Shown here: positions 33,971-39,240 of the stretch, one piece after another | How positions within the stretch are numbered: position 1 is the stretch's first letter | Layout of the letters: the number at the start of each line of letters is the position of its first letter | Source of the DNA: Pseudoxanthomonas sangjuensis | GTDB taxonomy: Bacteria; Pseudomonadota; Gammaproteobacteria; Xanthomonadales; Xanthomonadaceae | Assembly (NCBI RefSeq): GCF_010211755.1 | Contig: NZ_PDWR01000003.1 | Coordinates: forward strand, 62,001 to 126,000 | Reading direction: 5' to 3' | Length of the DNA: 64,000 nt | Program-made: the position numbers and the translations under genes | The notes under the pieces: generated by a model | What the model was told of the DNA's origin: nothing | Databases searched by the model: none | What the model saw: only the letters and a program-made list of their open reading frames with translations

Positions 33971-35578
33971 TCAGGGCGAGCCGCCGGCCCCGCGCGCCGC
34001 CACCTCGGCGGAACCGGCGTCCACGGCCTGCGCACGCGCGGCGAACAGCGTGCCCGGCGGCGGTTCGCGGGTGAAATAGGTGCGCACGCCGTCGAGTACC
34101 GCCCCGGCGATCTTGCGCTGGTACGCGGGGCTGGTGAGCTGGCGCTCTTCCTCGTAATTCGAAATGAAGGCGGTTTCGACCAGCATCGCCGGCATGTCCG
34201 AAGTGCGCAACACGGCGAAGTTGGCGCGCTCCAGCCGCGACTTGTGGGTGTTGCCGATGCGGCTGAGTCCGTCGAGTACGTGGCTCGCGGCGTTCTCGGA
34301 GGCCTTCATGTGGCCGCTCTGGGCCAGGTCGATCAGCACCGACGACAGCGTGCTGTCGACCTTCTGCAGGGGCACGCCGCCGACCAGGTCGGAGGCGTTT
34401 TCCTTGTCGGCCAGCCAGCGCGCGCGCTGCGACGAAGCGCCCTTCAGCGACAGCACGTAGACCGACGAACCGCTGGCGCTGCGATTTTCCGCGGCGTCGG
34501 CGTGGATCGACACGAACAGGTCGGCCTTGGCCGTGCGCGCCTTCTGCGCCCGCTGCGGCAGCGGGATGAAATAGTCGCCATCGCGGACCAGGTAGGCCTT
34601 CATACCCGGCGTGGCATTGACCTGGCGCGCCAGTTCGCGGGCGATGGCCAGGGTCACGTTCTTCTCGTACTTGCCGGTCGGGCCGATCGCGCCGGAATCC
34701 TGCCCGCCATGGCCGGCGTCGATGGCGACGACCAGCGGGCGCATGCCGGCCCGCATCGGGATACCGACGCCGACCCACGGCCCGGCGGATGCCTCGGGCA
34801 CCGATTCCGCGGCCTGCGCCTCCCGGTCGGGGGCCTTGCCTGCGGCGATGTAATCGCCCAGCGGCACCGACGCCGGCGCCGCCGGGGCCTGCGGCCGCGC
34901 GACGCCGACCGGAGCCGTGGAGCCGCCGTTGAGGATTTCCTGCGGCGACAGGCCGGCAACGGTCGCGGGTACCGCCGCATCGGCAGGCGTGCCCGTTGCC
35001 GGCGCTTGCGCCTGCTGGGTCACGATCGAGGTCAGCGCGGCGGTGGCCTGCGCGGCCCGCTGTTTTTCCGACTCGGACGGAGCCGTAGCCAGGCCCGCCG
35101 CGGGCGTCGGCGCATCGGCCGCAGGTTTCGTCGCCACGGCCGGCATCGCCGGACCGTCGCCCGGCCACTCGATCACCAGCAGCGAAACGCCATCGGCCGC
35201 CGACTCCATGCGCGGCTTCAGCGCCGCTACCGGTTCGGCCAGGTCGAAGACCACGCGCAGCGTGCCCGCCTCGGGCTGGCCGGTGCGCACCGACTTCACC
35301 ACGCCGCTGCCGCCGGGCAGTTTCAGCCCGCCCTTGGCGCTGGATGCCGGCAGGTCGACGACCAGCCGTTCGGGACCGTGCAGCGAGAGGGTCTTGTACT
35401 CGCCCTTGCCCTGCAGGCGGATCTCGGCGCGGGTACCGGTCGCACCCTGCTCGACGGCGATGCCGCTGACCTGGCCGGCGGCAGCCGGGAAAACCGGGGC
35501 AAGCAACAGGGAAAGCACGGCCACCGGGAGCAAAACGCCTCCCCAATAGCGTCCGAAGCTGGCCCGGTGCCTGCGCAT
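33971..35578 (-). CDS. amiC: N-acetylmuramoyl-L-alanine amidase with AMIN domain
   Basis: 535 residues. Signal peptide (VLLPVAVLSLLLAPVFPAAAG), AMIN septum-targeting domain (residues about 38-140), a long alanine/proline linker, then an amidase-3 zinc domain from about 285: VVAIDAGHGGQDSGAIG, the glutamate/histidine ligands in SIHADAAENRSASG, and LVETAFISNYEEE. It cleaves septal peptidoglycan for daughter-cell separation. It is between tsaE and mutL as in related genomes. Confidence 0.96.
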   Translation of the reverse strand: MRRHRASFGRYWGGVLLPVAVLSLLLAPVFPAAAGQVSGIAVEQGATGTRAEIRLQGKGEYKTLSLHGPERLVVDLPASSAKGGLKLPGGSGVVKSVRTGQPEAGTLRVVFDLAEPVAALKPRMESAADGVSLLVIEWPGDGPAMPAVATKPAADAPTPAAGLATAPSESEKQRAAQATAALTSIVTQQAQAPATGTPADAAVPATVAGLSPQEILNGGSTAPVGVARPQAPAAPASVPLGDYIAAGKAPDREAQAAESVPEASAGPWVGVGIPMRAGMRPLVVAIDAGHGGQDSGAIGPTGKYEKNVTLAIARELARQVNATPGMKAYLVRDGDYFIPLPQRAQKARTAKADLFVSIHADAAENRSASGSSVYVLSLKGASSQRARWLADKENASDLVGGVPLQKVDSTLSSVLIDLAQSGHMKASENAASHVLDGLSRIGNTHKSRLERANFAVLRTSDMPAMLVETAFISNYEEERQLTSPAYQRKIAGAVLDGVRTYFTREPPPGTLFAARAQAVDAGSAEVAARGAGGSP

Positions 35579-35729
35579 GGGGCGGATTCAAGCACCAAAG
35601 TGTGAATTGCGCAAGCACTTTTCCCTTAATAATCCGCAACCTGCCGCGACTTCCTAGTCCAGACCGGCAGGGAGGGTCCGCAAGCGTCGGTTTATAAGGG
35701 GCTGCCCAGAGCGGGCCCGGAAGCCGGAA

Positions 35730-36632
35730 TCAGCCCTGCAAACCGCCCCAGGACCAGCGCGGGATGGCCAGCCCGCAGGGCACGTCGGCGGCGGATCCGG
35801 GGTAGCGCGCCATCGTCGTCGTGGTCGCCCATGCGAAGTAATCGTGCAGCACCTGCCGCAAGGGCCCGGACGCGATCCCGACGTCGTCCAGCGCCCGGTC
35901 GAAGCAGGCGATCGCGCGCCGGTCCATTTCCTCGTGCACGCCGTTGCCGCTGTGCATGCGCACGACCGAGGTTTCGTCGCCGTGGTTTTCCGAATAGACG
36001 GCGGGACCGCCGAGCGCTTCGATCCAGTACGCGGCAAGGCGTTCGGTGTGTTGCGGATGGAAGCCGTGGCTGAAGGCGTGGCCGACGATCTCGTCGTCCA
36101 CGACTCGCCGGTGCCACGCTTCGGCGAGCCGATGCAGGCCTTCGGCGCCGCCAGCGGCTTCGTACACGCTTTGCAATTCGTGGCGCCGCCGTTCGAGTCG
36201 CGAAAGCCAGTCGCGGCCGGCGGCGGAGACGCCGTCGAGTTCCGCCCCCCGGCCTTGCCCCTGCACCGCCAGCACGACCCGCAGGTCGGGCGCGGGCAGG
36301 CCGTGGCCGCCCTTTTCCGGCCATTCGACCAGCCACAGCGTGGCGATGCCTTCGTCGAGGCCGAGGAAATCCAGTTCGCCGGCATCGGCGAGGCGATACA
36401 GGTCGAGGTGCCAGGCTTCGCCACCTTCGATCGGATAGCGCTCGACCAGCGTGTAGGTCGGGCTCCTGATCGCGCCCCGCACGCCGAGCGCGCGCAGCAG
36501 CGCGCGCGCCAGCGTCGACTTGCCGGCGCCGAGGTCGCCCTGCAGGTAGACCACCGCGGGAACGGGGCGCGTCCCGGCGAGCGCGCGGCCGAGGCGTTCG
36601 GTGGCTTCGGCGTCGGCAAGCTGCAACTTCAT
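35730..36632 (-). CDS. tsaE: TsaE tRNA-modification ATPase fused to a group II truncated haemoglobin
   Basis: 300 residues, twice the usual TsaE. Residues 1-148 are TsaE: Walker A GDLGAGKST at 32-40, SPTYTLVERY at 57-66, HLDLYRL at 75-81 and EGIATLWLVEWPE at 94-106. A short linker (ERRRHELQ) leads without a stop into residues 155-300, a truncated haemoglobin: VYEAAGGAEGLHRLAEAW, FHPQHTERLAAYWIEALGGPAVY, probable proximal His227 in RMHSGNG, and the PRWSWGGL tail. The globin half recalls actinobacterial group II globins. TsaE takes part in t6A synthesis on tRNA; a joined globin is unexpected. No ribosome site or ATG for a separate globin is visible, but TTG/GTG codons near 36170 cannot be excluded. 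Confidence 0.88.
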   Translation of the reverse strand: MKLQLADAEATERLGRALAGTRPVPAVVYLQGDLGAGKSTLARALLRALGVRGAIRSPTYTLVERYPIEGGEAWHLDLYRLADAGELDFLGLDEGIATLWLVEWPEKGGHGLPAPDLRVVLAVQGQGRGAELDGVSAAGRDWLSRLERRRHELQSVYEAAGGAEGLHRLAEAWHRRVVDDEIVGHAFSHGFHPQHTERLAAYWIEALGGPAVYSENHGDETSVVRMHSGNGVHEEMDRRAIACFDRALDDVGIASGPLRQVLHDYFAWATTTTMARYPGSAADVPCGLAIPRWSWGGLQG

Positions 36633-38116
36633 CGGTCGATGCCCGCCGGATTCGCCAGTCGCCGCAGATGCGGCAACAGATCGGAAGGCAGCAGACCGCG
36701 CTCGCCCTGTTCCGCCGCCGCATCGCCGGCCAGCGAATGCAGCAATGCGCCCGCACTCGCCGCATCGAACGCGGACAGGCCCTGCCCGCGCAGCGAAGCG
36801 ACGACGCCGGTCAGCAGGTCGCCCATGCCGCCGACCGCCATGCCCGGATTGCCCGCGCCGATCACGCGCGGCATCGCGTCCGGCGCCGCGACGATCGTGC
36901 CCGCGCCTTTCAGCACCACCGTCGCGCCGTAACGCTGCGCGATGGCCCGTGCGGCGGCATAGCGGTCGCGTTGCACTTCAGCGGTGGAAATGCCGAGCAA
37001 GCGCGCCGCCTCGCCCGGATGCGGGGTCAGGATGGCGTCGTGCAACTGGTGCGGCCACGTCGCGAGGAGGTTCAGCGCATCGGCGTCGACCACCAGCGGC
37101 TTGCCGGACTGCAGCGCCAGGTGCAGCACCGCGCGTGCCCAGTCGCCCTGCCCCAGCCCGGGACCGCCGGCGATGGCATCCGGGCTGGCCAGCAGCGGCC
37201 ACAGGTCCTCGTCCGACTCGACCGCTGCCGCCATCGCTTCCGGCCGCCGCGCGAGCCCCACCGGCACATGCCGCTCGCGCGTCGCCACCGTCAGCAAGCC
37301 GCAACCCGTGCGCAGCGCCGCCACGGCGCACAGCGCGATCGCGCCGCCGTGGCCATGGTCGCCGCCGATGCACAGCACGCGCCCGGATTCGCCCTTGTGC
37401 GTGTTGCGCCGGCGCGGCGGCAGCCATTGCGCGAGCGATTCGCCCGCCAGCAGCATCGCGCAGGGCGACGCGGCATCGAAGGTTGCCGCCGGAACGTCGA
37501 GGCCATCGAGCTGCACTTCGCCGGCGCACTCCAGCGCATCGCCGGTACGCAGGCCGACGTGCGGCGAGATGAACTGCAATGTGCAATCCGCGACCACGGC
37601 GCTGCCCGGTGCGGAACCGCGGTCGGCATCCAGGCCGCTGGGCACGTCCAGCGAGAACACCGGCGCCGGTTGCGCGTTGATCGCGTCGATCAGCGCCGCC
37701 GCATCCGCGTCCGGCGCGCGCGACAGGCCGATGCCGAACAACGCATCGACGACGAGATCGCCCTCAAGCCCCGCTTCCGGGAACAGGTCGATGCGCCCGC
37801 CGGCGGCGACGTAATCGGTGCAGGCGCGTTGCGCCAGCTCGCTGCGCGGAACATGCGCGGGAAGGTGGACCACCCGGACCTGACGCCGCGACTGCCGGGC
37901 CAGCCGCGCCAGCACGTAGCCGTCGCCGCCATTGTTGCCCGGCCCACAGACGACCGCGATCCGCATCGCCTCCGGCCAATGCTGAAGGACGTACTGCCAG
38001 CCCGCCTGCCCGGCCCGCTGCATCAACTCGTAACCGTCGCCGCCCAGCAATCCGGTCGCGCGCGCGTCGAGCGCGCGGGCCGCGGCCGTGTCGTAGAGCG
38101 GTGTCATGCCAGTCAT
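36629..38116 (-). CDS. nnr: Bifunctional NAD(P)HX epimerase / dehydratase
   Basis: 495 residues from the ATG at 38116 (a second ATG three codons later is possible). The N-terminal epimerase (NnrE, residues about 10-210) has VVCGPGNNGGDGYVLAR and DALFGIGLSR. The C-terminal dehydratase (NnrD, about 225-490) has HKGESGRVLCIGGDHGHGGA, TPHPGEAARLL and GNPGMAVGGMGDLLTG. It repairs hydrated nicotinamide cofactors. It overlaps tsaE by four bases, the usual arrangement. Confidence 0.96.
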   Translation of the reverse strand: MTGMTPLYDTAAARALDARATGLLGGDGYELMQRAGQAGWQYVLQHWPEAMRIAVVCGPGNNGGDGYVLARLARQSRRQVRVVHLPAHVPRSELAQRACTDYVAAGGRIDLFPEAGLEGDLVVDALFGIGLSRAPDADAAALIDAINAQPAPVFSLDVPSGLDADRGSAPGSAVVADCTLQFISPHVGLRTGDALECAGEVQLDGLDVPAATFDAASPCAMLLAGESLAQWLPPRRRNTHKGESGRVLCIGGDHGHGGAIALCAVAALRTGCGLLTVATRERHVPVGLARRPEAMAAAVESDEDLWPLLASPDAIAGGPGLGQGDWARAVLHLALQSGKPLVVDADALNLLATWPHQLHDAILTPHPGEAARLLGISTAEVQRDRYAAARAIAQRYGATVVLKGAGTIVAAPDAMPRVIGAGNPGMAVGGMGDLLTGVVASLRGQGLSAFDAASAGALLHSLAGDAAAEQGERGLLPSDLLPHLRRLANPAGIDR

Positions 38117-38127
38117 CGTGGCGATTC

Positions 38128-38142
38128 TATACTTCGCCCATG
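38128..38142 (+). promoter_or_regulatory. -10 box immediately before queG, possible leaderless start
   Basis: TATACT (38128-38133) lies only six bases before the queG ATG (38140) and no Shine-Dalgarno sequence is present. If it is used, transcription would begin at or next to the start codon. No convincing -35 hexamer is seen. Confidence 0.35.
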
Positions 38143-39240
38143 CCTTCACCCGCTTCCTGCCCGCCCGATCCGTCCGCGCTCGCTGCCCGCGTGCGCGAGC
38201 TGGCGCGCGAGCTGGGCTTCCAGCGCGTCGGCATCAGCGGCGTCGAACTGGGCGACGACGAAGCGCACCTGCGCGACTGGCTGGCGCGGGGCCTGCAGGG
38301 CACGATGGGCTGGATGGCCGCGCACGGCGACAAGCGTTCGCGCCCGGCCGAACTGATCCCCGGCACGCTGCGGGTGGTCTCGGTCGGCTTCGACTACGGC
38401 CGCCGCGACGACGACGAGGCCTGGGCCACGCTGGCCGATGGCGAACGCGCCTACGTCGCCCGCTATGCGCTGGGCCGCGACTACCACAAGCTGATGCGCA
38501 ACCGCCTGCAGAAACTGGCCGAGCGCATTGCCGCCGAAATCGGCCCGTTCGGGCATCGCGTGTTCGTCGACTCGGCGCCGGTGCTGGAGCGCGCGCTGGC
38601 GCGCAACGCCGGGCTGGGCTGGATCGGCAAGCACACCTGCCTGATCGACCGCGACGGCGGCTCGTGGTTCTTCCTCGGCGAAATCTACGTCGACCTGCCG
38701 CTGCCGATCGACGAACCTGCGACCGCGCATTGCGGTACCTGCATGCGCTGCATCGAGATCTGCCCGACCCAGGCGATCGTCGCCCCGTACCGCCTCGACG
38801 CGCGCCGCTGCATTTCGTATCTCACCATCGAACACGAGGGCGCGATTCCCGAGGAACTGCGCCCGGCGATCGGCAACCGCATCTTCGGTTGCGACGATTG
38901 CCAGCTCGTGTGTCCCTGGAACAAGTTCGCGAAGCGGACCGATGAGCCGGATTTCCGCGCCCGCAACGACCTGGACACGGCGACGCTGCCGCAACTGTTC
39001 GCGTGGACGGAAGACGAGTTCCTCGCCCGCACCGAAGGCTCGGCGATTCGCCGCAGCGGGCACGAACGCTGGCTGCGCAACATCGCGGTGGCGCTGGGCA
39101 ACGCGCCGGAGACGCCCGCGGTGATGGCCGCGCTGGCATCGCGACGCGACGACCCTTCGCCGCTGGTGCGCGAACACGTGGCGTGGGCGCTGCGCCGGCA
39201 TACCGGTGAGAACGAAGGATCGGCTACTTCCGGCCCATGA
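38140..39240 (+). CDS. queG: Epoxyqueuosine reductase
   Basis: 366 residues. Two [4Fe-4S] motifs are visible: CGTCMRCIEICP (from about residue 197) and CDDCQLVCPWN (about 250). The N-terminal cobalamin-binding QueG domain has RVGISGVELGDDEAHLRDWLARG and ALGRDYHKLMRNRL. A HEAT-like C-terminus (VREHVAWALRRH) binds tRNA. It performs the last step of queuosine synthesis on tRNA. The ATG at 38140 is the first in the family frame and lacks a Shine-Dalgarno box. Confidence 0.96.
   Translation: MPSPASCPPDPSALAARVRELARELGFQRVGISGVELGDDEAHLRDWLARGLQGTMGWMAAHGDKRSRPAELIPGTLRVVSVGFDYGRRDDDEAWATLADGERAYVARYALGRDYHKLMRNRLQKLAERIAAEIGPFGHRVFVDSAPVLERALARNAGLGWIGKHTCLIDRDGGSWFFLGEIYVDLPLPIDEPATAHCGTCMRCIEICPTQAIVAPYRLDARRCISYLTIEHEGAIPEELRPAIGNRIFGCDDCQLVCPWNKFAKRTDEPDFRARNDLDTATLPQLFAWTEDEFLARTEGSAIRRSGHERWLRNIAVALGNAPETPAVMAALASRRDDPSPLVREHVAWALRRHTGENEGSATSGP

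Follow-up and report, generated by a model that had tools for sequence, protein, structure and literature searches.

Does a single reading frame of Pseudoxanthomonas sangjuensis join the tRNA-modification ATPase TsaE to a haemoglobin, and, if so, what does the joint protein do? In the window, i.e., the whole stretch of 64,000 nucleotides analysed here, the frame in question (35730–36632, minus strand; 300 amino acids plus stop) runs without an internal stop through a complete TsaE and then a complete 2/2 globin, and its limits coincide exactly with those given in a preliminary description of the locus. Both halves exceed their Pfam cut-offs: TsaE (PF02367) matches residues 6–122 (E = 1.8e-31; 109.2 bits versus a cut-off of 26.6) and Bac_globin (PF01152) matches residues 155–255 (E = 1.5e-11; 44.9 bits versus 21), bearing out the in-frame arrangement proposed earlier. 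The fusion also passes the cut-off of the TsaE model TIGR00150 (116.1 versus 60.1 bits); it misses that of a stricter TsaE model, the NCBIfam equivalog PRK10646 (NF007931; 132.8 bits versus 246). The product would be a two-domain protein of ~33 kDa.

The TsaE domain (residues 1–148; 36189–36632, minus strand), assigned from PF02367, TIGR00150 and alignment to HI0065 and Thermotoga TsaE, contains the P-loop GDLGAGKST and the segments SPTYTLVERY, HLDLYRL, FLGLDE and LVEWPEKG. It is followed by a short linker (about residues 149–152; 36177–36188, minus strand), variable in that it differs from the P. helianthi counterpart discussed below, and by the globin domain (residues 153–300; 35733–36176, minus strand), assigned from PF01152, residue counts over 82 rows and the globin fold of the structural model. 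TsaE proteins of solved structure (HI0065, Thermotoga and others) align with the fusion up to residues 116–155, and solved truncated haemoglobins align to it from residues 143–157 onward. The join falls after 'DWLSRLE', within the genus-variable portion of the TsaE tail, in agreement with its earlier placement at the TsaE end. In the predicted structure the C-terminal half adopts a globin fold, and both PF01152 and this fold identify it as a 2/2 globin; a single predicted helix (residues 137–153) spans the join, where model confidence shifts from low to high.

A search for the same domain pair found it in Pseudoxanthomonas helianthi 110414 (G005), where the fusion is 78% identical, has no frame break and carries one extra codon at the linker. 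Since this second genome was assembled separately, a sequencing error, considered in the preliminary description, is excluded; the TsaE–globin frame is a genuine gene fusion. Between the two species dN/dS amounts to 0.229 for the TsaE half (146 codons) and 0.211 for the globin half (145 codons), with 0.12–0.33 for five neighbouring genes; the corresponding dS values are 0.684 and 0.621, with 0.394–0.683 for the neighbours. Judged by these substitution rates, both halves are under purifying selection and therefore both seem to do something useful. The linker codons 147–155 show 33% identity over nine codons and hold the sole length difference, of one codon, so that the exact linker seems not to matter.

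The fusion is rare. A protein search of 38 Pseudoxanthomonas genomes gave a match in 37 (the one without is 89% complete), and the two halves follow each other without a stop in 2 of the 38, P. sangjuensis and P. helianthi. A few other rows running on past the tsaE stop (e.g., G007 and G003, with two stops each) were rejected as fusions. At the family level 384 of 395 genomes matched the fusion protein, and among the matches listed (to ~E = 1e-58) only the same two genomes have both halves without a stop. A pattern-based scan of 84,980 species genomes returned 173 relatives, and one of the best 80 (P. helianthi) has both halves. In a class sample of 369 genomes a strict cut-off left three matches, P. 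helianthi not among them, with both halves only in P. sangjuensis. No TsaE-like ORF lies near any of 79 other globin loci (flanks of up to 3 kb on each side). Relatives with separate genes only, a reservation expressed earlier, are thus what the other loci show, but not P. helianthi, in which the genes are fused.

How the two genes came together can be approached from the empty site in relatives. In a comparison of 37 genomes, the distance between a fixed position close to the end of TsaE and the motif ATTATTAAG is 598 nt in P. sangjuensis and 574 nt in P. helianthi versus 100–121 nt in 33 of the 35 unfused genomes (exactly 102 nt in 25 of these); in the other two, G006 and G024, the motif has no match and no length was taken. 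Therefore, ~0.5 kb was gained at the tsaE 3′ end, in support of the gene insertion suggested in the preliminary description. The TsaE tail varies across the genus in both length and letters, and in the fusion its last codons are replaced by the 148-residue globin; the motif TAGGAAG persists downstream of the globin stop codon, as does the element that precedes amiC. The segment at 35654–35689 (minus strand), downstream of the globin, is a probable leftover of the former tsaE terminus, TAG stop included, and we consider this moderately supported by the empty-site comparison. The 39 bases before the motif share 22 of 39 ungapped positions with the old tsaE tail of G008, a score reached by 0 of 1000 shuffles, and also resemble the old tails of G034 and G004 (scores matched by no more than 1 of 1000 shuffles). 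When all 31 motif-bearing relatives are compared, 13 and 15 of them reach p ≤ 0.05, as do 9 of 31 with a control segment. Because the control also attains this level, insertion of ~0.5 kb with a globin gene into the tsaE tail is the best reading but is not proven.

The number of such events depends on the placement of one unfused genome, G020, whose assembly carries 8% contamination. A neighbour-gene tree of 12 chosen genomes groups P. helianthi, P. sangjuensis and G020 together (98/99) and puts G020 beside P. sangjuensis (87/88); of the seven genes sought for this tree, DUF2200 was present only in P. sangjuensis, and pgi was missing from G020 and G002. A three-gene tree of 37 genomes gives the same grouping (0.941 and 0.805). 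Unless the branching is wrong, this placement therefore calls for either a loss or a second gain; a constraint pairing the two fused genomes is not rejected in the 12-genome tree (p-AU 0.16). The globin tree has no resolved branching, and the topology uniting the two fused globins has the higher likelihood (p-AU 0.834). Fourfold sites gave no help on the question of a single origin. The simplest account is one gain, combined with loss from G020 or misplacement of that genome in the trees.

The globin half had been described as a complete truncated globin of group II. It is complete, and group II is its nearest class by sequence and tops the structural match list, tied there with group I; the residues that define the group are a different matter. 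Counts were made over 82 rows, the fragment L110 left out, and positions B9–B10 and G8 were mapped via alignment to 2bmm, on whose helix numbering the assignment of HisE7 and GluE17 also depends. The proximal HisF8 is H227 (82/82 rows), E7 is H195 (82/82) and E17 is E205 (81/82). B9–B10 is W173–H174 (Trp in 81/82 rows, His in 81/82), and G8 is A240 (Ala in 81/82, Trp in one). Published hallmarks of group II (O) are PheB9–TyrB10 and TrpG8, as outlined in PMC4720485, and both are absent from the fusion globin, with Tyr replaced by His at B10 and Trp by Ala at G8. At the truncated-haemoglobin hallmark comparison the P. sangjuensis protein reads GDETSVVRMH. It keeps the majority letter at columns with at least 78/82 agreement, as read by eye. 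Among the titles and abstract openings listed in literature searches, none describes a 2/2 globin with His B10 and Ala G8.

A likeness to actinobacterial globins, noted earlier, is confirmed by 81% identity to a stand-alone Nonomuraea globin. Within the family sample the globin half is matched in 33 of 395 genomes at E ≤ 0.001, and three of these globins are close: the two fusions and a stand-alone gene of the same genus (G026; 65% identity); the remaining matches listed are at most 39% identical. The G026 gene (L118:4992-5450) lies beside genes for a DJ-1/PfpI–AraC regulator and an X-Pro dipeptidyl-peptidase. Elsewhere, close relatives among the best 80 of 173 loci come mainly from Acidobacteriota and Actinomycetota, and the inserted gene probably came from a pool of this type. 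These loci (L032–L109 in our numbering, mainly from the same two phyla among the best 80) also delineate a highly conserved 2/2 globin subfamily in its own right, with Trp-His at B9–B10, Ala at G8 and a Trp-containing C terminus.

Upstream of the fusion, nnrE (NAD(P)HX epimerase/dehydratase; 36629–38149, minus strand) overlaps the tsaE start by four bases, ATGA (36629–36632), and queG lies upstream of this pair on the opposite strand. In P. helianthi the place of the overlap is taken by a 33-nt inverted repeat of the GTGGGAGCGACGTAAGTCGCG type, with 35 nt between its arms, just before tsaE (L031:2889-2989); from its look we take it to be a REP-type element. The next gene downstream is amiC (N-acetylmuramoyl-L-alanine amidase; 33971–35578, minus strand), and between the two, untouched by the insertion, stands the element GGATTATTAAGGGAAAA (35619–35635, minus strand), which is conserved in most of the genus and may be part of the amiC promoter. 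Across the P. sangjuensis genome the fusion is the one TsaE above the Pfam cut-off (a second match falls below it), and there are two PF00814 proteins, read here as TsaD and TsaB. A second Bac_globin match lies on another contig (L124; G000:C28:16984-17265) and, judged by its letters, is presumably of group III type.

What, then, might the fused protein do? TsaE is a small and widespread bacterial ATPase whose role in the t6A cycle is still under study (as presented in PMC9654439 and PMC11648230); together with ATP it binds TsaB–TsaD, and its presumed role is to reset TsaD from one round to the next (as summarized in PMC9654439). Aquifex TsaE is described as lacking the C-terminal helix (PMC11648230), and, since the tail also varies within the genus, a C-terminal partner could be tolerated. 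We hypothesize, with a probability of roughly 0.55, that the globin is a co-expressed passenger with haem chemistry of its own which does not gate TsaE, the fusion having arisen from an inserted globin gene. The gene would have entered, probably once, in the ancestor of a small Pseudoxanthomonas clade. The TsaE half would serve TsaB–TsaD in t6A synthesis as usual, and the globin half, attached to a tail that TsaE can do without and expressed as part of the nnrE–tsaE operon, would act on O2, NO or peroxide. This proposal rests on the variable tail, the unconserved linker, the Aquifex protein without the helix and the lack of a TsaE-like ORF near stand-alone globins. Against it, both species have kept the fusion, and P. 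sangjuensis has TTG in place of ATG at the former globin start, two observations that are also compatible with a role for the fused protein as a whole.

That TTG (36174–36176, minus strand; residue 153) occupies the position at which most stand-alone relatives have their start codon (M-Q-S/T-V-Y) and is a candidate internal start. Most of the stand-alone globins printed begin M-Q/E/R-S/T-V/I-Y/F where the fusion has L-Q-S-V-Y, a few showing V or another residue, and in P. helianthi an in-frame ATG precedes the aligned position by one codon. It is possible, though less likely than not, that one mRNA gives two products, the fusion and a free globin initiated at the former globin start codon or beside it, a reservation also made in the preliminary description. 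The ATG in P. helianthi and the TTG in P. sangjuensis near that start are in keeping with this, as are Shine–Dalgarno-like energies of −5.6 and −5.0 kcal/mol at these two sites, stronger than at the presumed amiC, mutL and pgi starts. However, P. sangjuensis has TTG rather than ATG, and similar energies characterize about the strongest 15–20% of 880 positions in its fusion frame; being this common, they do not discriminate.

A regulatory link between the halves appears unlikely. Here the globin would sense O2, NO or redox state and alter how TsaE cycles through ATP hydrolysis or docks onto TsaB–TsaD, so that t6A would follow respiration or nitrosative stress. Both halves are conserved in frame in two species, the P. 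sangjuensis globin retains the majority letters at the nearly invariant columns (at least 78/82 agreement), and the modelled helix 137–153 might pass on movement across the join. Yet this helix sits where model confidence goes from low to high, the linker letters differ and one codon is added between the two fused species, TsaE-like ORFs are found near none of the 79 other globin loci and the fusion is known from two species only. The suggestion in the preliminary description that tRNA modification may respond to oxygen, NO or redox state is thus not supported so far, given the 33% identity of the linker and the 0/79 loci. Quite improbable, too, is a haem sensor built onto TsaE by which O2, NO or redox state would tune t6A directly and thereby the decoding of ANN codons. 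Faulty assembly or sequencing, or a chance fusion in decay of which one half is dead, would suit the rarity of the arrangement (2/38 genus genomes) but is very improbable in view of the second, separately assembled species, the absence of stops and the purifying selection on both halves.

The natural and selected fusion suggests that the C-terminal end of TsaE tolerates a 148-residue globin, which offers a handle on the working surface of TsaE and an example, accessible to experiment, of a haem protein linked to a tRNA-modification enzyme; a haem-sensor reading, if true, would make it a gas-responsive one. Further, the globin half is indicative of a 2/2 globin type, widespread and highly conserved, with His B10 and Ala G8. 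In line with the preliminary description, no paper in the literature collection searched combines the terms TsaE, fusion and globin, and among the titles and abstract openings listed in further searches none names a TsaE–globin protein.

Compared with the TsaB–TsaD–TsaE t6A complex, the fusion shares with TsaE (YjeE) the whole domain, the P-loop, the switch segments and the place after nnrE, and differs by the globin in place of the last tail codons. Its globin resembles group II (O) truncated haemoglobins overall (e.g., those of Thermobifida fusca and Bacillus) but lacks their TyrB10 and TrpG8. With group Q (IV; Bustamante 2016) it has in common HisE7, GluE17, GG motifs and a distinct C terminus, whereas group Q has Trp or Phe at G8 and Arg-X-Arg by G8, and the fusion globin has Ala at G8 and no clear Arg-X-Arg. 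Were haem to gate TsaE, globin-coupled sensors would serve as the model; however, these are described (PMC1457004) as carrying an N-terminal 3/3 globin followed by a C-terminal domain that varies, and here a 2/2 globin is C-terminal. Chimeric 2/2 globins are, like this one, joined to another enzyme, such as an antibiotic monooxygenase, a nitrate reductase or a protein kinase; none of these partners, named in PMC7082302, is a tRNA-modification protein. As 2/2 globin fusions to other enzymes are known, TsaE–globin is a new domain pair among such proteins.
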